Shown here: positions 793 to 12,781 of the stretch, piece after piece | Position numbering within the stretch: position 1 is the first letter of the stretch | Layout of the letters: every line of letters starts with the position of its first letter | NCBI GenBank assembly: GCA_947474205.1 | Contig: CANJIC010000036.1 | Span: 1-12,781, forward strand | DNA length: 12,781 nucleotides | Direction of reading: 5' to 3' | Source of the DNA: Planctomycetaceae bacterium | GTDB taxonomy: Bacteria; Planctomycetota; Phycisphaerae; Phycisphaerales; SM1A02 | Notes under the pieces: generated by a model | The model's database searches: none | What the model was told of the DNA's origin: nothing | Seen by the model: only the letters and a program-made list of their open reading frames with translations | Translations under genes and position numbers: made by a program

Positions 793-835
793 ATTCAGAT
801 TCGAAATACGTTGATGAATTTTCATGAATCTGAAT
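793..835. repeat. 10-bp perfect inverted repeat straddling the MFS stop codon
   Basis: ATTCAGATTC (793-802) is exactly complementary to GAATCTGAAT (826-835), with a 23-nt spacer. Inside it, GAAA (803-806) can pair with TTTC (820-823), leaving a 2-nt bulge. The stop codon of the minus-strand transporter gene (822-824) sits in this hairpin. No T-run follows on either strand, so it is not a canonical intrinsic terminator. It may be a 3'-end stabilising or weak termination hairpin for the transporter transcript. Confidence 0.5.
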
Positions 836-2096
836 TCAATCTTTCAATTGACACCGTAGGTCCAGCATCTGACAAATGCACAACTCGACCAGGCACCCAG
901 GGCAAAACAGCTAATGCTGCGACAGCGAATCCACTTCCCATCCAGAAGGCGATTTGTGGAAGTCCGTAGCTCCACAAAATTCCAGCGGCGACGCTGGCGC
1001 TTAACACGGCGGCGCCTTGGAAAAATCCAAACAAGCCAAGCGCGGACGCTAAGCGTTCTTTGGGTGCGTAATCCGTAATCATGGCGCGCGCAGTTCCTTC
1101 AGTGCACGCGACGCTGACACCGTACAAGCCAAAGAGCACCCAAAACATCCAGGACGAATCACGCCCAAGCATTGCAAATCCAGCATAACTAACGGCATAA
1201 ATGGCCCAGCCTGTGGCGAGCACCGGCCAGCGCCCATGGCGATCACTAAGCAAGCCCATGGGATAACTCGCCACTGTGTATGTGGCGTTGAACAACGCAT
1301 ACAACAAGACGCATGTGACTGGTGATTGCCCAAGATCAAGCGCGCGCAACAACAGAAAGGTGTCGCTGGAATTTCCAAGCATGAACAACACCAACGCACT
1401 CATGGCAACCCAAAATGATTTTCCGTAGGGAACGCCCGTCGACTTAGCGAAATCTTTTTGACGCTGCTCCACTTGCGTTGGTGACGTATGTGGAATGAGC
1501 CAGGTCATGAACAACGCGACGGCCGAAGACGCCGCGGCGATGGCGAAGATGATTCGAAATTGCGGCGCATCTTGCGGCGTTGCCGCGCGGGAACCAATCA
1601 GCCACGCAAGAACCGCCGCGGCAATGAGCGCGCCGCCAACTCCACCAAGCGAATCAACGCCGCGGTGAAAACCAAATGCGCGTCCGCGATCTTGTATTGA
1701 AACACTTTCCGCGATCAGCGCGTCGCGCGGCGCTCCGCGAACGCCCTTGCCCACGCGATCCAACGTGCGACCGCACAAGACAAAGCTCCAATGCGAAGCG
1801 ACCATGACGAAAATTTTTCCAATGAATGTAATGCCGTACCCACGGCGAACCCATCGCACACGGTGGCCGGTTGCGTCGCTGTAATAGCCAGAAAGCCCGC
1901 GCATAACGCTGACAATTGCTTCGGCGAAGCCCTCGATCAATCCCAACGCGACTGGACTTGCGCCAAGCACGCCCGTGACAAAAAGTGGCAATAGCGGATA
2001 GGTCATCTCGCCGGCAAGGTCGGCGAAAAGACTGATCGCGCCAAGAATCCACAAAGACCTTGGAAGCGGGCGGCGATTATGGCGCGCCAAAATCAA
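822..2096 (-). CDS. MFS transporter (major facilitator superfamily)
   Basis: The 424-residue product is a hydrophobic inner-membrane protein with the length and about 12 membrane segments expected for MFS. The first helix region is at residues 14-40. A motif-A-like loop G-x-x-S-D-x-x-G-H-R (70-79) lies between helices 2 and 3. The signature RVGKGVRGAPRDALIAE (114-130) and DRGRAFGFHRGVDSLGG (136-152) are typical of a bacterial MFS subgroup with no firmly assigned substrate. The second half (from about residue 225) repeats the six-helix plan, with PMGLLSDRHGRWP as the symmetric loop. The start is uncertain: TTG at 2096 has GGAG (2101-2104) only 4 nt upstream, while TTG at 2090 has it 10 nt upstream. 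With the 2096 start it overlaps the 3' end of the upstream lipoprotein gene by 20 bp, suggesting one transcript and translational coupling. Substrate unknown. Confidence 0.9.
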   Translation of the reverse strand: MILARHNRRPLPRSLWILGAISLFADLAGEMTYPLLPLFVTGVLGASPVALGLIEGFAEAIVSVMRGLSGYYSDATGHRVRWVRRGYGITFIGKIFVMVASHWSFVLCGRTLDRVGKGVRGAPRDALIAESVSIQDRGRAFGFHRGVDSLGGVGGALIAAAVLAWLIGSRAATPQDAPQFRIIFAIAAASSAVALFMTWLIPHTSPTQVEQRQKDFAKSTGVPYGKSFWVAMSALVLFMLGNSSDTFLLLRALDLGQSPVTCVLLYALFNATYTVASYPMGLLSDRHGRWPVLATGWAIYAVSYAGFAMLGRDSSWMFWVLFGLYGVSVACTEGTARAMITDYAPKERLASALGLFGFFQGAAVLSASVAAGILWSYGLPQIAFWMGSGFAVAALAVLPWVPGRVVHLSDAGPTVSIERLNSDS

Positions 2097-2490
2097 ACAT
2101 CTCCGATTTGGACCATTTTGGTTTCCATTTCTTGATCAACGCAACATGTTCGGGGTTCGCCTGATAGGCGCGATATGCCTCAACACTTGACAATTCCACC
2201 AAGATGCCAAGCGTGTAATCCTGACGGATATTTTTGCGACCCACATCAATGTGTGGACCACACGCGTAATTCAATACGCCAGGAATTTTTGGAAGCACGG
2301 CGTCGGAATCGGCCTTCATGGCCGCGGCATCGCTTGGATTTGTAAGCGTCACAAAAACCAAGTGTTGAACATGCGCGGTTGAGATCTTGGGCGCGCTTGC
2401 ATTTTCGCCCGCGCTTGAGTTTGCACTGCCCTTCACGGCGCACGCGCTCAACATCAGGGCGAAGGCGCCAGCTAACAAACCCTTCTTCAT
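2077..2490 (-). CDS. Dabb-domain (stress-responsive alpha/beta barrel) lipoprotein
   Basis: The product is 137 residues from the ATG at 2490. It begins with a short classic lipoprotein signal, MKKGLLAGAFALMLSAC, with lipobox L14-S15-A16-C17, so it should be lipidated at C17 and membrane-anchored outside the cytoplasm. A Ser/Ala-rich linker follows. Residues 41-134 match a Dabb domain: HLVFVTLTN strand, a helix, IPGVLNYACGPHIDVGR, YTLGILVELSS, and YQANPEHVALIKKWKP. Dabb proteins are small dimeric ferredoxin-like barrels with varied or unknown roles. In-frame GTG/ATG codons at 2529, 2526 and 2520 would add 10 to 13 residues before the signal peptide and nearly close the gap to the divergent gene, so 2490 is preferred, although its ribosome binding site is weak. 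The 3' end overlaps the transporter start. Biochemical role unknown. Confidence 0.82.
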   Translation of the reverse strand: MKKGLLAGAFALMLSACAVKGSANSSAGENASAPKISTAHVQHLVFVTLTNPSDAAAMKADSDAVLPKIPGVLNYACGPHIDVGRKNIRQDYTLGILVELSSVEAYRAYQANPEHVALIKKWKPKWSKSEMFDFGAP

Positions 2491-2528
2491 CACCACTACG
2501 GCATATTGAACTCTGTTCATGCACATCA

Positions 2529-2541
2529 CGATACCGTATCG
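2529..2541. promoter_or_regulatory. Palindrome in the divergent intergenic region, possible operator
   Basis: CGATACCGTATCG is a perfect 6-bp inverted repeat around a central C. It lies in the 72-bp gap between the lipoprotein start (2490, minus) and the methyltransferase start (2563, plus). A short direct repeat, CGATTT (2540-2545 and 2552-2557), overlaps it. The position suits a regulator acting on both genes, but no clear -35/-10 pairs were found around it. Confidence 0.3.
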
Positions 2542-2562
2542 ATTTGTATTACGATTTGACCC

Positions 2563-3414
2563 ATGTCGCTACCGAACGCTTCAAATCAAATTCCGCCCAA
2601 GCCCGACTATGTGCTTGGAACACACAACGACGAACACGCCCGACTTGGCATGCAACATTCGTTGTGGCAAGAATTTGTTCTTGATGCATGGAAACGCGCG
2701 GGCATTTGCACAGGCTCACGCGTTGTGGATGTTGGCGCGGGTCCTGGATTTGCCACCATGGATCTTGCGGATATTGTTGGCGCAACTGGTCATGTGACCG
2801 CGGTTGAAATCTCGAGCAAATTTGCGCAAGAGGTGAAGGACCAAGCGAACGCCCGCGGCTTGAAAAATATCAGCGTTCACATTATGGACTTGATGCATGA
2901 AGACATTCCACTTGCCAACGCGGGCGCGGCGTTTGATGCCGCATGGTGCCGTTGGGTTTGCATGTTCGTGCCTGATATTGGCGCGTTGGTTCGCTGCGTT
3001 CACAATGCACTGCGCGCGGGCGGCGTTGCGGTGTTCCATGAATACGTGCACTACGAAACATACGGATTGCAACCACCCACGCCTGGCGTTGACTCTTTCA
3101 CACAGGCGGCCATGAAAAGTTTCAGCGCTCGCGGCGGCAACGCCAACATTGCGGGGACACTGCTGAAAGAATTACGTCAGCACGGATTTGAAATCATGTC
3201 CATCAAGCCCATCGTGCGCTCAGCGCGTCCACATGAGCCCCTGTGGCAATGGCCAGCCGGCTTCATTCGCACGTATTTGCCGCGACTGGTTGAACTGGGA
3301 CAAGTGGATAATGCGTTCGCCGCGAATGTGCTTGCAGAACTGGCCAGCGCTGAACAAGATCCGCAATCCATCATGCTTACGCCAACGGTGCTTGAAATCA
3401 TTGCGCGCAAATAG
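2563..3414 (+). CDS. Class I SAM-dependent methyltransferase
   Basis: The 283-residue product is a cytoplasmic Rossmann-fold methyltransferase of the Methyltransf_11/25/31 type. Motif I is VVDVGAGPG at residues 54-62. The acidic residue that binds the SAM ribose hydroxyls is E82 in VTAVEIS. A motif-II/III-like HIMDL is at 106-110, and motif post-II is FDAAWCRWVCMFVPD (124-138), followed by LRAGGVAVFHEY (150-161). The C-terminal third is a family-variable helical region that would hold the acceptor pocket. No Shine-Dalgarno sequence is visible before the ATG, so initiation may be leaderless or SD-independent. It is transcribed divergently from the lipoprotein gene. The methyl acceptor cannot be told from sequence. 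Confidence 0.88.
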   Translation: MSLPNASNQIPPKPDYVLGTHNDEHARLGMQHSLWQEFVLDAWKRAGICTGSRVVDVGAGPGFATMDLADIVGATGHVTAVEISSKFAQEVKDQANARGLKNISVHIMDLMHEDIPLANAGAAFDAAWCRWVCMFVPDIGALVRCVHNALRAGGVAVFHEYVHYETYGLQPPTPGVDSFTQAAMKSFSARGGNANIAGTLLKELRQHGFEIMSIKPIVRSARPHEPLWQWPAGFIRTYLPRLVELGQVDNAFAANVLAELASAEQDPQSIMLTPTVLEIIARK

Positions 3415-3486
3415 CGCTGTTTCAAACGTGCTGTGCTGCCTGCGGCGAATATGTTTGCCGACATAGATTCTGAACAACTCAACGCT

Positions 3487-3777
3487 TCACAAAGCTTGCG
3501 CTATTACCGTGGGCAAAGTCTTTGGCGCGCGAATGCGCAATTGCTTGTTCACATTCGTCTGGCCAAACACAACTTCAATAGCGGACTTACTCACGCCAAA
3601 CTCTTTGGCAAGAAATCGCACCATGTGGTCGGTGGCTTTGCCATTTTCCGGTGCGGCCGTCACGCTAATTTTCAGTTGATTGCCCTTTACCTTGCCAATG
3701 GCATCACACTTTGAACTAGGCTTTCCAAGCACATTCAGCACTAAGATGTCGCCGTCCCATGCGCAAAATTTTTCCAT
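3487..3777 (-). CDS. DUF167 / YggU-family protein (UPF0235)
   Basis: The product is 96 residues from the ATG at 3777, the normal size for this family of small alpha/beta proteins. The core signature is at residues 35-83: LKISVTAAPENGKAT, then FLAKEFGVSKSAIEVV, then a G-x-T-x-x-x-K segment (GQTNVNKQLRI). The frame is open for 24 more codons upstream, but those residues do not look like the family, and AAGGGA lies about 8 nt before 3777. The cellular function of DUF167 is not established. It ends facing the methyltransferase gene (convergent, 72-bp gap) and starts 40 bp from the divergent sulfatase. Confidence 0.85.
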   Translation of the reverse strand: MEKFCAWDGDILVLNVLGKPSSKCDAIGKVKGNQLKISVTAAPENGKATDHMVRFLAKEFGVSKSAIEVVFGQTNVNKQLRIRAPKTLPTVIAQAL

Positions 3778-3817
3778 GTTGCAAGTCCCTTGTAGCGATG
3801 AAACGCGAAAGATTGAT

Positions 3818-5413
3818 ATGAAGTTACAACAATCCACACGCGCGATCACTTGCCTAGCTTCGTGCGCTGCGTCAAATTTCGCGCCAACTTTTTTATTGAC
3901 TTCGCTTTTGACATTGTTGTTGGCTTTGGGCGCGGTGGCTCAAACCACGCCGAATGTGGCCGCTGCCAGCAACCCCGCGCCACCACACGCGCAAGCGCCA
4001 CCCAACTTTCTTTTTATCTTGGCGGATGACCAAAGTTGGGCAGGTCTGTCCGTGGAAATGATCGCTGGAAAAGAGTTCAGCAAGGGAAAAAATTTCAACA
4101 CGCCCAACACGGAAAAACTTGCCGAGCGCGGAATGATTTTCTCGCAGGCGTACGCCGCCCATCCCAAATGCGAATGCTCCCGCGCTGCCATTCTTGCCGG
4201 CCGCACCACCACCACGCTCAACGCGCCAATAAAAGCATCCACCACTTGGTCCATGCCGCTCACGGATTCACTTGCCAATTCGCTTAAGCGCGCAAACCCT
4301 TTGTATCGCGCGGCGCATCTTGGCAAATGGCAATGGCCCATGAAGCCCGCGGATTTGGGCTACGACCAAAGCGATGGCGTTACGCAAAATCAAACTGGTG
4401 AATCAAAAGATCCAGACGATCCAAAACTTTCCCTTAGCCTCACGCGTCGCGCCTGTGATTTCATGGCCACGCAAGTGAAGGAGGATCATCCGTTCTTTCT
4501 ACAGATTTCTTTTTACGCGGTTCATGCGCCCGCGCAAGCGTTGCCCGACACGCTGAAGAAATATGACAACTTGAAGAGCGCAACCAACGGCGCCGCGAAT
4601 GCGACTGAGGATTCTTCAGGCGCAACCGAAGGCAAGCGCGCGCAGAATGGCGCGGGCAAAGGCCCAGGAAAGGGACCAGGCAAAGGTCCAGGCAAAGAAA
4701 ATGCAAACACCGACCGCGCCACCATGGCGGCCATGACGCAAGACTTGGACACGTGCGTGGGTACGCTTATGAAAAAACTTGACGAGCTTGGTATCACCAA
4801 CAACACCTACATTATTTATATGAGCGACAACGGCGGGCGCACTGACATTCTTAGCGGTGGCAAAGGCAATTTGGGCGAGGGCGGCCTGCGCGTTCCGCTG
4901 ATTGTTGCCGGCCCTGGCATTCACGGCGCGACGTATTGCAACGAACCCGTGATCAGTTACGACATTCTTGCAACGGTGCTAGATGTTGCCGCGCCCAACA
5001 CCGCGCTGCCCAAGGGCGCCGAAGGTGGCAGTTGGAAAACCGTGCTGCACAATAGCGGCGCCGGAAAAGTGAAGCGCAGCATTGATCGCATGGTGTGGCA
5101 TCAACCTGTGGAGGTGCCGCATCCGCAATCCGCCATTCGCAAAGGTGATTACAAGCTTGTTTATGAATGGGATACACAGAATGTGCAACTGTTCAATCTT
5201 GCCGATGACTTGAGCGAGAAGAAAGATGTGTCCAAGGAGAAACCAGAACTCACTGCGCAACTGACCGCGGAATTAAAAGCGCATGTGATCGCGGGCCTGG
5301 GCGAGGAAGCATGCGCCGCGCTCGCTCGTGGCGAAACTCCCCAAAATCGCGGAGGCGGCAAGGGCGGCAAAGGCGCTGGCAGCGCTGGCAAACCAAAAGT
5401 TTCCAAGCCGTAA
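3818..5413 (+). CDS. Secreted sulfatase (alkaline phosphatase superfamily) with altered active-site motifs
   Basis: The 531-residue product carries an export signal (hydrophobic core about 24-40, likely cleavage after AVA, 41), so it should act in the periplasm or outside. Sulfatase landmarks in order: FLFILADDQSW with metal ligands D70-D71; the formylglycine site as C118-E-C120-S-R122 followed by AAILAGR; HLGKWQW with K170 and Q172; VHAP with H236; SDNGG with D337-N338; and KGNLGEGGLRVP with K349. The usual formylglycine signature C-x-P/A-S-R has Cys in place of Pro/Ala, and the usual GKWH His is Gln, so activity or substrate may be atypical. A low-complexity insert (about 247-296) includes a GKGP tandem repeat, and the tail (about 511-531) is Gly/Lys-rich. 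The ATG at 3818 is chosen because the signal peptide starts there; the ribosome binding site is weak. Substrate is unknown. Confidence 0.85.
   Translation: MKLQQSTRAITCLASCAASNFAPTFLLTSLLTLLLALGAVAQTTPNVAAASNPAPPHAQAPPNFLFILADDQSWAGLSVEMIAGKEFSKGKNFNTPNTEKLAERGMIFSQAYAAHPKCECSRAAILAGRTTTTLNAPIKASTTWSMPLTDSLANSLKRANPLYRAAHLGKWQWPMKPADLGYDQSDGVTQNQTGESKDPDDPKLSLSLTRRACDFMATQVKEDHPFFLQISFYAVHAPAQALPDTLKKYDNLKSATNGAANATEDSSGATEGKRAQNGAGKGPGKGPGKGPGKENANTDRATMAAMTQDLDTCVGTLMKKLDELGITNNTYIIYMSDNGGRTDILSGGKGNLGEGGLRVPLIVAGPGIHGATYCNEPVISYDILATVLDVAAPNTALPKGAEGGSWKTVLHNSGAGKVKRSIDRMVWHQPVEVPHPQSAIRKGDYKLVYEWDTQNVQLFNLADDLSEKKDVSKEKPELTAQLTAELKAHVIAGLGEEACAALARGETPQNRGGGKGGKGAGSAGKPKVSKP
4655..4690 (+). 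repeat. 12-bp tandem repeat encoding GKGP x3
   Basis: Three consecutive 12-nt units (GGCAAAGGCCCA, GGAAAGGGACCA, GGCAAAGGTCCA) encode Gly-Lys-Gly-Pro three times inside the sulfatase, with a partial fourth unit after them. The units differ at synonymous positions, so the peptide repeat is better conserved than the DNA. It is part of a flexible, positively charged insert in the enzyme. Confidence 0.85.
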
Positions 5414-5530: not shown

Positions 5531-8500
5531 CTACTTGGTCTGCAACGATTGCGCGTCGGCTTCAATCCATACCCCAAGAATTATCACATCGGTTTGATCA
5601 ATCATGCCATCATGATTTAGATCGCCAAACGCTGGGTCCCTATCACCCAAAGACACAAGCAACAACGAGAGATCAATGCTGTCCACAACGCCGTTGAAAT
5701 CAAAGTCGCCAAATTCACGTTGACACAAATCGGGTTCGCCGTCATCGTCAATATCTTGGCTTCCAAGCGCGATCAAGTTGGCAGCGCTCTCCTGTGTTTC
5801 CGTTGCGCAATCGATTGTCCATGCTGGATCGCTTCCAGAAATTGGCTCAAACAACATTGCGCTATCAATCTCCACTGGTTGAACTTCGCCATTGGCGGCC
5901 AATCTGCGACCAGCGCGAGTGGCGGCAAGCCAACGACCACGTCCCGACATGCTGATTTCTCCACTTGTGGTTGCGCCACCAGAAACCACCTCGCCATTAG
6001 AACCGTCGCCAGCACCGGTGAAATTGGATCGCGATCCTGAATATCCTGTATCAAAATTTGAGAAACCAGTTTCGCTACCGCCAATGATTGCGCAAACTCT
6101 GTAGACATACAACACGCCTGCGACCGCTGTCGAATCACTATATGAATTTGTAGTGGGCGTCGCGATGGATGCCAAGGCGCCCATGGTTGAAATATTGACC
6201 GCCCATGTACCAATCGAGCCCACATCGGCGCTTGCCGTATCTTGCACGGTCAAGGTCCATGCTCCGGCCGCGACTTCGTTTACAAACGCCGACTGCAAAG
6301 AATTCGAAGGCTTGTAACGGCCCCCTGTTACCAACTGGGAGCACATCACTGATGTCGCGGTGTCATCAAGAACATAGTTGCCATTGATATCAGTTCCACC
6401 ATTGCACCCGGAAAAGAGCACGCAACTTTTACCCTTATGCGAAAGCGTGACAATGAGATCAGCTTGATAGGTATGACGAAAATTAGTAATCGACACAGTG
6501 ACCGCACCAACGCGCGCGGTTGAGTCAGCTGGAACAACATTCAATGTGGCGCTGACCGCGCTGACATCGGGAAGATTCATGCCCGTACCCGACGTGGTGA
6601 CCTCGCTTGAAACTTGCGCGCGATACACCTTGTACGAACTCGCCCCAGCAGTCGCGCCCCATGTCAAAGCAACACGATTTGTGTGCGCGCCATCGGACGC
6701 GACCAGTATTGCTGGCGTTCCAATTGCGGCATACCCCTCATCGCTTGTGCTTGCAGCGGTGTCGCCCATTGGCATGACAGCCTTCACGCAGTACAGATAG
6801 CGCCCGCCCGCAATGGCCGTGGCGTCTACGTATGTGTTGGTGACAGACGTGCCAATTTGAACTGGACTACCGCCTGCGACCCAACGGAATATTTTATAAC
6901 TCGCGGCGCCACTCATGGCCGTCCAATCCGCAATGACTCGATCATTGTAGAAACCATCCGATGCGGTCAATCCCGTAGGTCCAAGCATGTTTCGCCAACC
7001 CGTATCGGAGCCGGAAACAATCACGGCATTTGCGGACGTGACTGCGTCAACCTTATACGTGTACAACGTGGATGCCACGGCGGATGTATCGCCGTAGGTT
7101 GTGTTGGCTATTGTCGCAATCAAGGCCGGCTCTGACACGCTTGTGATTTGAATGGACCAAGACTGCAATGAGCCAACATCGCCACCGGCAGTATCCGAAA
7201 GGACAAGTGTCCAATCACCATTGGCAGTATCGCTGGCAAATGTTGATCGCAGCGCGTTGGAAGGTTTAAATTCACCACCAATTCCTGTTTGCGCGCAGAG
7301 TCCAGCCGAGAATGAATCAGACAATATGTATGTTCCATTTAAGTCGGTGCCGCCATTGCAACCACTCGCAAGTACGCACTGCTGCGCACCGTGTCGCAAT
7401 GTGAGTACCAAATCACCCTGCCACGTGTGGTACAAGTTTGTAAGCGTGACCTTCACCAGCGAACTCACGGCTGACGCGGGCGCGTCAATATGAATGGTGC
7501 TTGATGAGGTGGAAAAATCAGCTATGTTGAAGCCGCTACCCGTTCCCGATTTAAAACTGGATGAGTCAGTGCGATAGACGCGATATGAAGCCGCGTTGGT
7601 GACGGCATTCCACGAAAGATTGACCTTGTCCGCGTAGTCACCGTCCGAGGCCAACAGTGTGAGCACGGGCGGCAAGGATCGTAGACCCGTGACTGAATTG
7701 CTTAGGGCAGAGAAACTCACGGCTGACACACTCTGCACGGCATAGGTGTATGTGGTTCCAGCTACGGCCGTCAAATCCGCGTAACTTGTTGCCGTTGTGC
7801 TGGCAATTTCAGCAAGGGTTGCCACGCTGTCGCCGCGCAAGATCTTGTAACTGCTAGCACCCTGCGCGGCAGACCATGTCAGCAAAATTTTGTCGGTGTA
7901 AATATCGTTGCTTGCAGCCACATTGGTGGGCGCGGCCAGACTTCCGCGGAATCCAGTGTTCGTGGCGCTTACAAGTCCGTCCCCCAACGCGCCGACCGAC
8001 ATGACGGAATAGGTATAGACCGTTGATGGGGAAGCCGATGTGTCACTGAAATTAGTTCCAGATGAAGTGCCGATTTGAGCAGTTGCTCCACTTCCAATGG
8101 CGCGCAAAATTTTGTACCCGGATGCTCCAGACACAGCGCCCCAAGTGATTTCAACTTTATCCAACAGGGTTCCGTCGGTGGCCGCGACCGATGTGGGCGC
8201 AGAAATGTTTCGCCAACCATTCTCTGTGTTACTTGCGCTCGTATCCGCGTTTGCCACTATGGCCACCACGCTATAGGAGTAGATGGTTGCAACTGTTGCC
8301 GTGGTGTCCGCAAATAAAGTGGATGCGCTGGTGCCGATCTGCGTTGGACTAAAAACACTATTGACAGTCATGCCCCAGGAAGAAATTGCACCCGTGTCCA
8401 CATTTGCGGAATCTGTAATGGAGAGTGTCCAGTCGCCCGCAATTTGTTGATTTGCAAACGCGCTTGTAAGCGAGTTGGACGGCCGATAGGTTCCGCCTGT

Positions 8501-10951
8501 CGCCGTTTGCTGACAAAGTAAAGCGCTCGCGGCATCGTCAATGACATAGGTGCCGCTCAGGTCCATTGATGAATTACAATTCTGCGCAAGAATGCAAGTG
8601 ATCCCGTTATGCGTCAATTTCAGGGTTAAATCACCCTGATATGTGTGGGTGAATGAATTCAACTGAATCACCAGGGAACTCACCAACGCCGTGTTTGAAG
8701 CCGCAAGAGTAATGACGCTGGTGTTGGTTGAATTATCGGGGATAGAAAAACCTGAACCAGTTCCACTGACTGAGCCGTTGAGCAACCAACGCTTCACCTT
8801 ATACCCTGTCGAATTTGCAACCGCGTTCCATGTCAACGCGACTTTGTCCGCGAAGGCGCCATCACTTGCGATTAAATTTGTGGGTCCGTTGGTGAGAGCG
8901 ACAAATCCGGTGTTTGCAACGCTGGCCGCGGAATCACCAAAACTATTTGAGGATTTCACCGTGTAGCTATACACAGTGCCAGGAGTAGCGGTCATGTCAT
9001 CAAATGTGGTGGTGGTGGATGTTCCAATCTGCGCCGAAGCGCCGCTGCCAATGGAGCGCAAAATTTTGTAACTGGTCGTGTTGGTGGATGCGGACCATGT
9101 CAATTGCACACGATCCGTGAAGGTTCCATCGCTTGCCAACAGATTCGCGGGAACGGTAAGACCAGCAAGACCATGGCGGCCAAACGCTTGATTGATGAGA
9201 TCGGAGTTTGGCGTGCCGTCACTCAGATTTCCGTTGTTGTCATCCAAAGTTAAATAATCAATGCGGATGTCATCGGCAATATCGCTCTGCCCAGAATGCA
9301 ACATGACTTCATTGATCGCAAGCGCGGCTACTTTATCAATGGCCGTGCTTGCAAAGCGCGCGCCATACAGTTGCCGCAAATCCCACACAATGCCGGAGAG
9401 CAACTGACCACAGTCATGCATTTCGCTGCCACAACTGCTGCAACCTGAGGCCGAATATTGACAGTTATTGGCGGCGTTACGAAGGCCGGTTGAGCAACTC
9501 TGAAATCCTGCGCCCAACTTTGGGTCGTCAAGAATCAGAACCGCCATGACATCTCCAAAGCCTTCGCCAAATGCGTCCTGACCACTGCCGCCGCAATTCA
9601 CTATGTGATGCCCATATTCGTGATGCACCACGCCGCTAAACGAAGTGTTCGCACAGCCGCCGCCCGCCTTGAAAAAGTTAATGCTGATGCCGTCGTAATA
9701 GGCGTTGCAAATGCCGGCTAAATTCACATTCACCCCGAACCCGGTTTGGGTTGCAATGGTTGGAAAATTTGGCGCAATACGAAGCGTGAAGTCACGAACA
9801 ATATTGGCCTGGTAGTAGGCGTTGGTTTGCGCGGTATCCAACTCAGTAGGAACAGGATTGAAAGTAAAAGTAGTTGATCCAGAAGAAACAGTTTGACTTG
9901 CCACAGTCAGTGTGGTGGAATCAGAATTGGCTACGCGGAAATATTTTCCATTGGCAATGGATGGGCGCACAACCACGCTGCCACTAATTGAACCGCTGGT
10001 GAAGTTTCCATTGCTGTCGCCATAGACGGTGCTGGAACCAATGGCCACCGCGGTATACGGCAATCTCTTGGACGCCTCTGGATCGCATACATCGGCGCGC
10101 TTGCCATCGGTCACCATGCCAGAGACTGTGCCCGTAACAACTGCATGCAAAATACGGTTTTCTTGGTACAGAATTGTTCCGTCGGTGGGGTCAACAATAT
10201 ATTCAAATGATTGTTGATTTGGGTCGTTTGGTCCTCCATGGGTCTCAGCAATAAACTGAACGCCCAATCGCGCTGGTTGAATATTGTCATCAATTCCCGC
10301 CCACACCACATAGCGCGGCGAAGTCACGCGCGGAATAGTTGTGAATTGGGGCATGACATTTCGCATAAAAACACCAGCGTCCAATTTGGAAGTGTCCAAT
10401 GAAAGTCCAGTGATTTGATTGGCAATGTTTCCCACTGAACGCAACGTTCCACCGGCTAGAACAACGGGAAAATCGGCGTCGTCACGAGTAATTGCCCAGC
10501 CAAACGCCCGATATACCGGAACATTGGCGGCAGTTTGCGTGAAATAGACCGCATTCAAATTGCCCACTTTGGCATCTTCATTGGGCAATTCAACGACATG
10601 GATTCCATTCTCAAATGGACCAATGGGTTGCAAATCCGTGGGCGCCACATTCCAGAGAACAGACCAACGTTGGAAAAAAGTAGTGGCGCTTGCGGATGGG
10701 GAATCACCCACCGCCAACCTGGAACCCCACGCGCGGCGAACTCGACTTCCTGGGCTCAGCAATCCGCCTTCAGGGTGCAGATCAAGAAAAGATGTTCGCA
10801 CCGTGGCATCTGTTTGATTGCGAATGCCGCCTGGAGTTGGGACAACTGGAGGAGTTGTTGCGACTTTGTCTCCATTGGCAACAGAAGCCATTGAAAGCGT
10901 TAAAAAAAGCAGCGTTCCAGCGGCATTTCCTAGGCATTTTAACTTCATCAT
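5531..10951 (-). CDS. Giant secreted gluzincin-type metalloprotease with FN3, nested P domains and dockerin-like C-terminus
   Basis: The product is about 1806 residues. Numbering below counts from an in-frame TTG at 10972; subtract 7 for the ATG at 10951, preferred because AGGGG lies 5 nt upstream and the signal peptide begins there. Residues 8-33 are the signal peptide. About 98-270 resemble a fungalysin PepSY/FTP propeptide (ARLGVQFIAE, YIVDPTDGTILYQEN). About 380-600 are the protease: H451-E-Y-G-H455, with probable third zinc ligand E470 in GEGFGD, and cysteines at 422, 440, 460, 493, 504, 511, 514 and 521. Seven FN3 modules span 607-1644; the second, fifth and seventh each contain an inserted P domain (739-873, 1143-1279, 1461-1597). 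Calcium loops follow at 1740-1748, 1756-1767 and 1784-1795. No sortase or PEP-CTERM anchor is visible. It is likely a secreted protease, M36-like by inference; substrate unknown. Confidence 0.88.
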   Translation of the reverse strand: MMKLKCLGNAAGTLLFLTLSMASVANGDKVATTPPVVPTPGGIRNQTDATVRTSFLDLHPEGGLLSPGSRVRRAWGSRLAVGDSPSASATTFFQRWSVLWNVAPTDLQPIGPFENGIHVVELPNEDAKVGNLNAVYFTQTAANVPVYRAFGWAITRDDADFPVVLAGGTLRSVGNIANQITGLSLDTSKLDAGVFMRNVMPQFTTIPRVTSPRYVVWAGIDDNIQPARLGVQFIAETHGGPNDPNQQSFEYIVDPTDGTILYQENRILHAVVTGTVSGMVTDGKRADVCDPEASKRLPYTAVAIGSSTVYGDSNGNFTSGSISGSVVVRPSIANGKYFRVANSDSTTLTVASQTVSSGSTTFTFNPVPTELDTAQTNAYYQANIVRDFTLRIAPNFPTIATQTGFGVNVNLAGICNAYYDGISINFFKAGGGCANTSFSGVVHHEYGHHIVNCGGSGQDAFGEGFGDVMAVLILDDPKLGAGFQSCSTGLRNAANNCQYSASGCSSCGSEMHDCGQLLSGIVWDLRQLYGARFASTAIDKVAALAINEVMLHSGQSDIADDIRIDYLTLDDNNGNLSDGTPNSDLINQAFGRHGLAGLTVPANLLASDGTFTDRVQLTWSASTNTTSYKILRSIGSGASAQIGTSTTTTFDDMTATPGTVYSYTVKSSNSFGDSAASVANTGFVALTNGPTNLIASDGAFADKVALTWNAVANSTGYKVKRWLLNGSVSGTGSGFSIPDNSTNTSVITLAASNTALVSSLVIQLNSFTHTYQGDLTLKLTHNGITCILAQNCNSSMDLSGTYVIDDAASALLCQQTATGGTYRPSNSLTSAFANQQIAGDWTLSITDSANVDTGAISSWGMTVNSVFSPTQIGTSASTLFADTTATVATIYSYSVVAIVANADTSASNTENGWRNISAPTSVAATDGTLLDKVEITWGAVSGASGYKILRAIGSGATAQIGTSSGTNFSDTSASPSTVYTYSVMSVGALGDGLVSATNTGFRGSLAAPTNVAASNDIYTDKILLTWSAAQGASSYKILRGDSVATLAEIASTTATSYADLTAVAGTTYTYAVQSVSAVSFSALSNSVTGLRSLPPVLTLLASDGDYADKVNLSWNAVTNAASYRVYRTDSSSFKSGTGSGFNIADFSTSSSTIHIDAPASAVSSLVKVTLTNLYHTWQGDLVLTLRHGAQQCVLASGCNGGTDLNGTYILSDSFSAGLCAQTGIGGEFKPSNALRSTFASDTANGDWTLVLSDTAGGDVGSLQSWSIQITSVSEPALIATIANTTYGDTSAVASTLYTYKVDAVTSANAVIVSGSDTGWRNMLGPTGLTASDGFYNDRVIADWTAMSGAASYKIFRWVAGGSPVQIGTSVTNTYVDATAIAGGRYLYCVKAVMPMGDTAASTSDEGYAAIGTPAILVASDGAHTNRVALTWGATAGASSYKVYRAQVSSEVTTSGTGMNLPDVSAVSATLNVVPADSTARVGAVTVSITNFRHTYQADLIVTLSHKGKSCVLFSGCNGGTDINGNYVLDDTATSVMCSQLVTGGRYKPSNSLQSAFVNEVAAGAWTLTVQDTASADVGSIGTWAVNISTMGALASIATPTTNSYSDSTAVAGVLYVYRVCAIIGGSETGFSNFDTGYSGSRSNFTGAGDGSNGEVVSGGATTSGEISMSGRGRWLAATRAGRRLAANGEVQPVEIDSAMLFEPISGSDPAWTIDCATETQESAANLIALGSQDIDDDGEPDLCQREFGDFDFNGVVDSIDLSLLLVSLGDRDPAFGDLNHDGMIDQTDVIILGVWIEADAQSLQTK
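5564..5761 (-). other. Dockerin-like / EF-hand calcium-loop segment of the giant protein
   Basis: Three acidic loops lie in a row. The first is D-I-D-D-D-G-E-P-D-L-C (residues 1740-1750, thrombospondin-3-like). The second is D1756-x-D1758-x-N1760-G-x-x-D1764-x-x-D1767. The third is D1784-x-N1786-x-D1788-G-x-x-D1792-x-x-D1795. The last two have canonical EF-hand/dockerin ligand spacing and are followed by Leu/Ile-rich helices. Such C-terminal segments are common on secreted planctomycete proteins. Whether it binds a cohesin or only calcium is unknown; no cohesin domain occurs in this window. Confidence 0.75.
6182..6592 (-). other. P domain 3 inserted in FN3 module 7
   Basis: It opens with SGTGMNLPDVS, has FRHTYQADLIVTLSHKG, GAWTLTVQDTASADVG and closes with TWAVNIST. 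Cysteines at 1517, 1523 and 1544 keep the spacing of the other two. FN3 sequence brackets it (SYKVYR before, ASIATPTTNSYSDS after). Confidence 0.8.
7136..7546 (-). other. P domain 2 inserted in FN3 module 5
   Basis: It opens with GTGSGFNIADFS, has LYHTWQGDLVLTLRHG, GDWTLVLSDTAGGDVG and closes with SWSIQITS. Cysteines at 1199, 1205 and 1226 have the same spacing as in P domain 1. FN3 sequence brackets it (SYRVYR before, PALIATIANTTYGDT after). Confidence 0.8.
8354..8758 (-). other. P domain 1 (proprotein convertase P/Homo B) inserted in FN3 module 2
   Basis: The segment opens with GSGFSIPDNS, has the central FTHTYQGDLTLKLTHNG and GDWTLSITDSA strands, and closes with SSWGMTVNS, as expected for the P domain of kexin-like and bacterial proteases. 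Its cysteines fall at 793, 799 and 820. FN3 sequence precedes it (GYKVKRW) and resumes after it (PTQIGTSASTLFADT). Confidence 0.8.
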
Positions 10952-11032
10952 GGAGACCCCTTGAAATAACAATTTGTTGTTGGCGCAATTTGGATTTTAA
11001 ACAACGAAACTACTTAAAACCACTACGAGAAC

Positions 11033-11061
11033 AGTATAGGTTAAAGATCCTTAAAAAAATA
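11033..11061 (-). promoter_or_regulatory. Possible promoter of the giant protease gene
   Basis: On the minus strand TATACT (11038-11033) resembles a -10 box about 80 nt before the ATG. The region upstream is AT-rich, but its candidate -35 (around 11056-11061) matches consensus poorly. A 6-bp dyad, AATAGT-ACA-ACTATT (11066-11080), lies just upstream and could be an operator. This is a weak call. Confidence 0.3.
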
Positions 11062-11128
11062 ATATAATAGTACAACTATTTACTGAACAGCCTGGTGCTT
11101 TGGCGCTCTCTTTGCTCGTTATGCAAAG

Positions 11129-11161
11129 AAAAACCGCATCACAAGCTGGGCTTGGATGCGG
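11129..11161 (-). terminator. Rho-independent terminator of tRNA-Asn
   Basis: Read on the minus strand, CCGCATC (11161-11155) pairs with GATGCGG (11140-11134). A second 5-bp helix (11154-11150 with 11146-11142) lies inside, offset by one bulged base, around a 3-nt loop. Five T residues follow (11133-11129). It starts 13 nt after the tRNA 3' end. Confidence 0.85.
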
Positions 11162-11173
11162 CTTCTTCCAAAA

Positions 11174-11246
<73 letters not shown>

Positions 11247-11425
11247 ATCGGAGAGGCAAGCATACCCATCTCCAAATAAAACGCCACTTTCATATTCCAA
11301 TGAGGCAATCCACAGGTACAACGCGCGGCAATTTGGCGTTGTGGCCGACGCAAGGGCAACCAACTGGCCCAATTTTGCAGCAATGCCAAGTATTTATGCA
11401 TTCAAATGCGCGACACTTGCACCCC

Positions 11426-11454
11426 TTGAGTTTGCGCGGCAAAACCGCTAGGAT
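11426..11454 (+). promoter_or_regulatory. Sigma-70-like promoter of rpmE
   Basis: TTGAGT (11426-11431) and TAGGAT (11449-11454) are separated by exactly 17 bp and end 21 bp before the rpmE start codon. Transcription would begin near 11460, giving a very short leader that contains GGAG (11466-11469) 6 nt before the ATG. Confidence 0.55.
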
Positions 11455-11475
11455 CTTCGTCCCTCGGAGCAACCA

Positions 11476-11751
11476 ATGAAAAAAGAAACTCATCCAAAGT
11501 GGTACGCAGATTGCAAAGTGAACTTTCGTGGTCAACATGTTTTAACTGTTGGAGCGACCGTTCCTGAAATGAATGTCGAAGTATGGTCGGGTTCACACCC
11601 GTTCTACACCGGTCAAAAGTCCTTCGTGGACACCTTGGGACGCGTTGAGCGCTTCCAAAAGAAATTTGCTGGCGCGTACTTTAAGAAGGAAGGCGATAAG
11701 GATGCGAAAGCACCTGCGACCAAGCCTGCCGCCAAGCCTGAGAAGAAGTAG
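11476..11751 (+). CDS. rpmE: Ribosomal protein bL31 (zinc-free form with C-terminal extension)
   Basis: The 91-residue product is the large-subunit ribosomal protein bL31, which bridges the 50S and 30S subunits near the central protuberance. It has the family's MKKETHPKW start, SHPFYTGQ (about 40-47), VDTLGRVERFQKKF (51-64), and a basic end. The four zinc-binding cysteines of the classical form (C-x-C and CSKC before HPF) are replaced: the second pair reads W-S-G-S. Only one Cys remains, at 13. This is therefore a C-minus bL31. Residues 71-91 add a Lys/Ala/Pro-rich tail that the usual 66-70 residue protein lacks. The start is supported by GGAG 6 nt upstream. It is followed by prfA, a common bacterial gene order. 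Confidence 0.93.
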   Translation: MKKETHPKWYADCKVNFRGQHVLTVGATVPEMNVEVWSGSHPFYTGQKSFVDTLGRVERFQKKFAGAYFKKEGDKDAKAPATKPAAKPEKK

Positions 11752-11775
11752 TTACGCAATTTGAAATTTGTCACG

Positions 11776-11807
11776 GCCGCGCTCTCACCAGCGCGGCTGT
11801 TTCTTTT
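11776..11807 (+). terminator. Intrinsic terminator between rpmE and prfA
   Basis: GCCGCGC (11776-11782) pairs with GCGCGGC (11791-11797) in an all-G/C 7-bp stem with an 8-nt loop, followed by a T-rich tail (TGTTTCTTTT, 11798-11807). It begins 25 bp after the rpmE stop, so rpmE probably ends here and prfA may need its own promoter in 11808-11937. No convincing promoter pair was found there. Confidence 0.8.
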
Positions 11808-11937
11808 CACGCACGGTGTCCGCGAGAAGGTTGAGTCTTTTGACGATGTTCCATAACCCAGTTTCATTGGCCACACACTGATTTGATCTTTAAATTCATC
11901 GCAACGCGCACCATGTTTCAATTGGAAACCAAATCGC

Positions 11938-12781
11938 ATGCAACCATCTTCACGACTGCTTGAAAAACTGAATGAGATAGAGGCCAACTTTTTGCGCGAC
12001 GAAGCGCAATTGTGTGACCCCGACATCATGACCGATCATCGCAAAGTGAAAGTGCTTTCACAACGACGCGCGGCGGCGCAACCTTTGATTGAAAATCTGC
12101 GCCAGTGGCGGCGTTTGGAGCGCGAGGCACGCGAGTGCGAAGTGCTTGCCAAGGACACGGACGCGGATGTCGCCGCCATGGCGCGCGGCGAAATTCATGG
12201 GCTGCACACGGCGCGCGACGCCAGCATGGAGGCTCTTATTCGCACGCTTGTTATGGCGGATGATCGCGCGATTGGCAGCCTAATTCTGGAAGTTCGCTGC
12301 GGCGTGGGTGGTCTTGAAGCCGCGATTTGGGCAGGCGATTTGCTGCAAATGTATCGCCTTGGCGCGCAACTTCACGCATGGCAATGGGAAGAAATGGAAA
12401 TCAAACATGGCGACGCGGGCGGCGTGACGCACGCCATTATTCGCATTGAAGGAACAGGGTGTTGGAACACGCTTGGGTATGAAAGCGGCGTGCATCAAGT
12501 GAAGCGCGTGCCGGCCACGGAAACCGCTGGTCGCATTCACACATCAACCGCGACGGTGGCGGTGCTGAGCGAACCCGAAACAGTGGAGTCGCAAGTTGAT
12601 CCAGACGAGGTGCGCGAAATTCTGACCACCGCGCAAGGGCCAGGCGGACAAAATGTGAACAAGGTTGCGACGGCCGTGCATTTAATCCACGAACCAACCG
12701 GTATAGAAGTGCGCATGCAGGAGACGCGCAGTCAATTGCAAAATCGGGACAAGGCGTGGCGGCTGCTGCGCGCGCGAGTGC
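11938..12781 (+). CDS. prfA: Peptide chain release factor 1 (RF1), 3'-truncated by the window
   Basis: The frame is open from the ATG at 11938 to the window end (281 codons plus one base); RF1 is usually about 360 residues, so roughly 80 are missing. RF1 recognises UAA and UAG and triggers peptide release. An N-terminal coiled helical domain (1-100) is followed by the PCRF domain, with EVRCGVGGLEAAIWAGDL and MYRLGAQ. The stop-codon reading tripeptide is P192-A193-T194 in RVPATETAGRIHTST. The HTSTATVAVL sequence marks RF1 rather than RF2. The catalytic loop is GPGGQNVNK with G236-G237-Q238, where the glutamine is normally methylated by PrmC. The ATG at 11938 has GGA 11 nt upstream, and no in-frame start was seen immediately upstream. 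Typical neighbours downstream would be prmC, outside the window. Confidence 0.95.
   Translation, partial: MQPSSRLLEKLNEIEANFLRDEAQLCDPDIMTDHRKVKVLSQRRAAAQPLIENLRQWRRLEREARECEVLAKDTDADVAAMARGEIHGLHTARDASMEALIRTLVMADDRAIGSLILEVRCGVGGLEAAIWAGDLLQMYRLGAQLHAWQWEEMEIKHGDAGGVTHAIIRIEGTGCWNTLGYESGVHQVKRVPATETAGRIHTSTATVAVLSEPETVESQVDPDEVREILTTAQGPGGQNVNKVATAVHLIHEPTGIEVRMQETRSQLQNRDKAWRLLRARV

Follow-up and report, generated by a model that had tools for sequence, protein, structure and literature searches.

Can a whole domain be lodged inside one bead of a beads-on-a-string protein, and can this happen three times in one chain? The question is raised by a giant metalloprotease gene at 5531..10972 on the minus strand of a 12,781-nucleotide stretch of DNA (below "the window", meaning the whole stretch) from Planctomycetaceae bacterium (assembly GCA_947474205.1, contig CANJIC010000036.1). 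The gene is a single open frame of 1813 aa when counted from a TTG, and the ATG at 10951 is likely the true start rather than the TTG (the database copy of the protein, P0002, has 1806 aa). The encoded domain order is a signal peptide (by eye), a prodomain and HExxH catalytic domain (aa 8-606), seven fibronectin type III (FN3) modules (aa 607-1644) and a C-terminal region. An earlier, sequence-only reading of this DNA proposed that FN3 modules 2, 5 and 7 each break off at the same internal position, are interrupted there by a complete proprotein-convertase P domain of about 135 residues and then resume. Domain arrays are usually thought to grow by beads added end to end.

The interruption is apparent in several kinds of comparison as follows: Pfam analysis of the 1813-aa protein gave fn3 and P_proprotein matches in three stretches, with PF01483 scoring 72.8 bits for the whole protein over these stretches (cut-off 21), so the profile search that the sequence-only reading had proposed bears it out for both domains. 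In an alignment of the FN3 modules the ~140 extra residues of modules 2, 5 and 7 all lie at one site, between the YKVxR strand and the QIGTS/LIATI strand. A composite profile, built from the window's own three composites, is continuous over aa 697-925, 1102-1330 and 1420-1645 (modules 2, 5 and 7), and modules 1, 3, 4 and 6 match it in two adjoining parts, 1-36 and 178-227, jumping from ~36 to ~178 with almost no residues between, as modules said to be uninterrupted should. Composites 2 and 3 are 45 and 40% identical to composite 1. The FN3 alignment and the composite profile place the plain modules 1, 3, 4 and 6 at 8885..9154, 7931..8197, 7670..7930 and 6716..6979 (all minus strand, as are the features below); composite modules 2 and 5, placed by the profile and AlphaFold models, are at 8198..8884 and 6980..7669, and composite module 7, placed by sequence comparison only, is at 6041..6715. 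With cut points of our choosing, the P domain nested between strands C and C' of module 2 (nested P domain 1, aa 733-875) is at 8348..8776, nested P domain 2 (aa 1139-1281) at 7130..7558 and nested P domain 3 (aa 1456-1598) at 6179..6607. The inserts are ~143 aa each in the window and 136-144 aa across the homologues measured, longer than the size first given, and the proposed alternation with plain FN3 holds loosely but not strictly, the order being plain-composite-plain-plain-composite-plain-composite.

What would such a composite look like? In two AlphaFold models, of modules 2 and 5 (predicted local distance difference test scores 88.8 and 88.2), both halves form one FN3 beside one P fold rather than an FN3-P-FN3 series; strands A-B-C are upstream of the P domain and C'-E-F-G downstream, and in structural matches the two halves jointly align to a single FN3. 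The predicted host is a seven-stranded Greek-key sandwich of ~90 residues, as in PF00041, and the predicted insert is a jelly-roll like the P domains of furin and Kex2. Complete FN3 folds on each side of P, for which the sequence-only reading had suggested that structure predictions be inspected, are in neither model. Sequence profile and both predicted structures together uphold the claimed interruption: a P domain is predicted to be nested at one C-C' loop in modules 2, 5 and 7. A frameshift or assembly artefact was rejected as the source of this layout, which lies in one open frame and recurs in proteins P0003-P0008 and in L001, an orthologue on a 'Planctomycetaceae' metagenome-assembled genome contig whose neighbouring frames resemble the window's. 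Recent foreign insertion was rejected as well, the G+C content being 0.485-0.527 in the inserts and 0.471-0.583 in the FN3 parts and the inserts being present also in P0008, which is 49% identical to the window protein over the searched region.

Is such an arrangement already known? Passages of PMC2577065 and PMC10560217 describe the FnIII-2 domain of the insulin receptor as split by a large insert with the rest of the FN3 after it, and those of PMC2577065 describe this insert as disordered and as carrying the alpha/beta cleavage site. The window's composites resemble FnIII-2 in that one FN3 is divided by a big insert; the likeness is one of arrangement only. The receptor's insert is single and described as disordered, whereas the window protein's is a P domain, is predicted to be compact and occurs three times. 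FnIII-2 is to our knowledge the closest precedent for an FN3 with a large insert, and its insertion site is the C-C' loop too. By profile (PF01483) and predicted fold the nested domains belong to the P family known from kexin, from furin and from S8 proteases of bacteria; there, however, the P domain follows a subtilisin domain (as passages of PMC2605481 describe for a Bdellovibrio protein), whereas the window's sit inside another domain of a metalloprotease. The solved FN3 folds closest to the host module are 3mpc (an Fn3-like protein of Clostridium thermocellum) and CtXyl5A (5g56), and 3mpc is the only sequence match among solved structures, in two half-matching stretches three residues apart (whole-sequence E 4e-4, each part weak). 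No paper on a P domain inside FN3 was found among the matches listed in a search, by title and abstract start, of the open-access literature (subscription papers are mostly outside it). The belief of the sequence-only reading that no example had been described stands for P-in-FN3 in that literature, although an FN3 can, as in FnIII-2, hold a large insert; domain nesting itself is a known phenomenon, of which the repeated P-in-FN3 arrangement is an unusual form.

Is the nested unit a whole P domain, and were the three captured once? Stand-alone planctomycete P proteins (L011, L012, L073 and others), although not nested, have a P unit that starts and ends as the nested one does: an xGxGxxIPD-type start directly follows the signal peptide (by eye), the end coincides with the nested unit's end, and a tail that we take to be PEP-CTERM-like comes after it. 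Because these ends coincide, the nested unit appears to be an entire domain with hardly any linker, and its entry and exit sites are identical across all composites compared. Residues D50, H80, D85, W152, D158 and G165, common in P domains, are kept in 22/22 composite rows. So are cysteines at columns 97, 103 and 124, which are present in 0, 13 and 12, respectively, of 57 non-nested rows; the stand-alone proteins thus differ from nested P in having no cysteine at column 97. Since the number of conserved cysteines (three) is odd, one may be unpaired. In a P-domain tree of 70 rows (P0002, P0004-P0006 and duplicate loci are left out) 13 composite P domains are on one side and the 57 others on the other side of a branch with support 87/93, found in 90% of 200 bootstrap trees and not starred. 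The nested P domains probably go back to a single capture followed by multiplication within the gene. Composite 3 of the window pairs with that of P0008 both in this tree (99/95) and in a tree of the FN3 parts (31 rows, 86 columns; P0003 is left out too) (91/92), and because composite positions are partly shared by the trees, three composites were probably present before P0008 split off, a record since blurred by gene conversion or weak signal.

The account that best explains these observations as a whole, and in which we place moderate confidence, is as follows: A stand-alone jelly-roll P domain would have been inserted once into the C-C' loop of a stalk FN3 in a thermolysin-like metalloprotease, and the FN3-P composite would then have multiplied inside the gene. 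FN3 strand C would run straight into the P domain's opening strand, and the domain's closing strand straight into C'; because of these direct joins the host FN3 should fold as one domain, the rod should be continuous and the P domain should hang sideways. With the protease at the N-terminal end, the FN3 rod would be a spacer leading to a C-terminal pair of dockerin-like EF hands (aa 1755-1799, 5576..5710). The three lateral P domains would either bind with avidity to a ligand, be it substrate, matrix polymer or a partner on the cell surface, or serve to clamp the rod. Sideways jelly-rolls at set places along a stalk would fit multivalent binding best, with stabilisation as the main rival function. 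On this account a whole domain is nested inside a bead while the rod stays unbroken, and this nesting, once in place, was copied within the gene and retained, so that a beads-on-a-string stalk was probably turned into a branched one by the P inserts. It offers a testable design rule, namely which FN3 loop takes a 140-residue domain and with which junctions, that could be used in branched FN3 scaffolds, and it is a reminder that annotation by linear domain order overlooks split domains.

Several points weigh against this account. In the FN3 tree the composites fall into three groups (3 changes) and form one clade in 0% of bootstrap trees. Composite 2 follows position in the FN3 tree (100/100), and the P tree instead puts P0008's second composite with the window's first (93/79) and P0008's first outside both; P0008's first composite is with the window's first in neither tree. 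The single composite of a relative in genome G107 (1583 aa, one composite, at position 2) joins position-2 rows in the P tree (99/86), which would need losses in G107. The input alignments of the AlphaFold models are shallow (12 and 9 rows, the composites themselves), and the models, of modules 2 and 5 of the three composites, were judged from secondary structure and aligned ranges. Several structural matches that span three FN3 modules have large root-mean-square deviations, up to 15.8 Å, so the predicted angles between modules are not fixed. The C-terminal pair scores 20.5 bits with the dockerin type I profile PF00404, below the cut-off of 22.9, and is dockerin-like only. What the sequences and models show is the nesting, its predicted fold, its conservation and purifying selection on it; the side-arm geometry, the secretion or anchoring and the ligand binding are what we infer. 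The trees do leave room for the account: for the FN3 parts, a tree with all composites in a single clade is not rejected (p-AU 0.445), nor is a P tree in which the G107 composite lies outside the other 12 (p-AU 0.409), and the mismatch between trees for P0008 may reflect gene conversion or poor resolution. The single-origin claim of the sequence-only reading, for which it proposed aligning the composites, is supported for the P domains; copying of the whole FN3-P unit is one possibility beside copying of the P domain alone.

Could the P domain alone have moved between FN3 modules (through ectopic recombination or local gene conversion at this loop), or could the loop be a hot spot that was hit independently? 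In favour are a best tree that does not join the host FN3 halves in one clade and the disagreement of the two trees on P0008 composites 1 and 2, and the loop does have a second use. When C-C' spacing was counted in the 364 FN3 modules in which both parts could be recognised (near-copies are kept; the window, P0001, P0002 and P0029-P0031 are left out), it was <=20 residues in 343, a P domain in 19 and an unrelated 73-residue GGxGY-type insert in 2. The latter are in similar giant FN3/TIG proteins of genomes G101 and G111 (L082, G101:C15:38000-47715, aa 506-663 of the frame at 2586, plus strand; L090, G111:C154:33000-45000, aa 569-726 of the frame at 5138, plus strand), and Pfam names no domain at this insert. 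From these two kinds of insert it follows that, in this group, different inserts have come to occupy the FN3 C-C' loop on at least two occasions. The nested P clade nevertheless speaks against independent captures. Also against this alternative are the three cysteine columns, mostly absent elsewhere, the shared entry and exit sites and the unrejected single clade of composite FN3s; we regard P-only movement or a hot spot as unlikely, if still a serious contender. A broader proposal, which we make tentatively and would not bet on at even odds, is that the C-C' loop is a natural plug-in site through which this lineage builds branched FN3 rods, with at least two independent domain insertions, FN3-P having then spread as a unit to give three lateral binding arms.

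A second alternative to single insertion and lateral P domains is that the P domains act within the molecule as stabilisers or regulators, possibly calcium-dependent, and fold onto the catalytic domain or a neighbouring FN3. In kexin and furin the P domain does pack against the protease, this gene encodes a protease, and the common P-domain residues are kept in every composite row. The enzyme, however, is of another kind. The thermolysin-like catalytic domain, together with the signal peptide (by eye) and a prodomain that is FTP/PepSY-like, is encoded at 9155..10951 and the HEYGH zinc motif at 9608..9622, and in an alignment of 12 relatives G447 and the HExxH and downstream glutamate residues of the M4/M36 thermolysin-fungalysin type (H444, E445, H448 and E463) are invariant (12/12). 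A profile of these 12 has a match in 5a3y, a thermolysin precursor, at E 1.4e-4 in the prodomain region, and the M4 profile PF01447 matches weakly in 4/12 members (best E 0.0018) and not in the window's own copy; Pfam gave no S8 match in the protein. By motif and precursor match the protease is a thermolysin-like HExxH enzyme and not a proprotein convertase, contrary to the context first suggested. Among the 28 of 30 fetched catalytic relatives that were compared, only L043 (G001) and L046 (G107) continue into FN3, and these two are also the only ones of the 30 with a P match; the other 26 have neither FN3 pattern nor P motif after the catalytic domain (4 of the 26 are cut short or out of frame). 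Because 26/28 relatives have no P motif, the catalytic domain generally seems to need no P domain in cis, and we consider stabilisation improbable. Most of the relatives without FN3 carry an Ig/MAM-like part (by eye) and close with EF-hand-like repeats, so that planctomycete metalloproteases which share the window's catalytic domain are mostly without FN3. The domain is present in 228/400 genomes of the order, and the composites are a pointer to this uncharacterised, widespread protease family; window 9155-10951 is a copy of it that Pfam missed. Two neighbouring catalytic-domain paralogues are in the genome of L001 (G001:C44:6143-10930), and adjoining copies are also in G107, G108, G111 and G115.

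Are the nested P domains merely passive spacers or neutral passengers, tolerated since their termini lie close? The copy number does vary (three vs one) and the P-domain ends suit hairpin insertion, but selection has acted on them. Between the window and L001 the ratio of nonsynonymous to synonymous substitution, from simple counting without a test of difference, is 0.20 for nested P (0.235, 0.224 and 0.147), 0.217 for plain FN3, 0.26 for host FN3 parts and 0.13 for the prodomain and catalytic part. The nested P domains are under purifying selection about as strong as that on the FN3 modules, and their identities between the window and P0008 by position are 46, 50 and 53%, which makes passengers a very doubtful explanation. 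Finally, an ordinary linear FN3-P-FN3 array with a short or degenerate FN3 on either side, the usual end-to-end setting of P domains, can be dismissed at the level of prediction, as each side holds only part of a strand set and the parts jointly match a single FN3.

How widespread is the composite? Composite 2, searched against a protein database at lengths 997-3172, matched 25 proteins, of which P0002 (the window protein itself) to P0008 have three full composites each and the remaining 18 have none; in P0008 composites 1 and 2 are separated by five plain modules, against two in the window. At lengths 391-1244 the same query gave 4 matches, with P0027 and P0028 new and no full composite, and a search of short proteins with composite 1 gave 0 matches. 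Profiles were run against 181 genomes from the family of G001, 400 from its order, 397 from its class and 392 from its phylum, with cut-offs of 1e-6 (family), 1e-15 (class) and 1e-20 (order and phylum), and among the matches listed in these four samples the full-length composites are from G001 and G107. Because the samples overlap and scoring took in only the 7 or 16 top candidates of each genome, divergent composites could be missed. Candidates extending past the P part were opened in part (G115:C14 and G003:C2, for example, are left out, and L088 of G109 gave no row). The 129 P matches in all fetched loci and proteins (copies included) comprise 45 with both FN3 parts adjoining, 83 with neither and a single match, in L008 (a truncated copy of the gene in G001), that adjoins one part. 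All 46 with an adjoining FN3 part belong to the window protease's family, so the boundary-pattern check proposed by the sequence-only reading confines FN3-flanked P (46/129) to this family, and no composite outside it was found in the test of all 129. By sequence, the composite is narrow in its known distribution. The P proteins of G062, G166, G063, G222, G256, G459 and G544 and the second one of G107 were rejected as composites (P domains without FN3 halves), and a 281-residue FN3 gap in P0019 was rejected as an insert, being missed FN3 modules instead.

A scan of 10900-12000 for sigma-70 promoters found 0, with 1.3 expected in shuffles. The neighbours of the metalloprotease gene in the window, at 822-5413 and 11938-12780, are a major facilitator superfamily transporter, a methyltransferase, a sulfatase and a release-factor-like gene (by eye), and in L001 the gene is likewise flanked by methyltransferase-, sulfatase- and release-factor-like frames (by eye).
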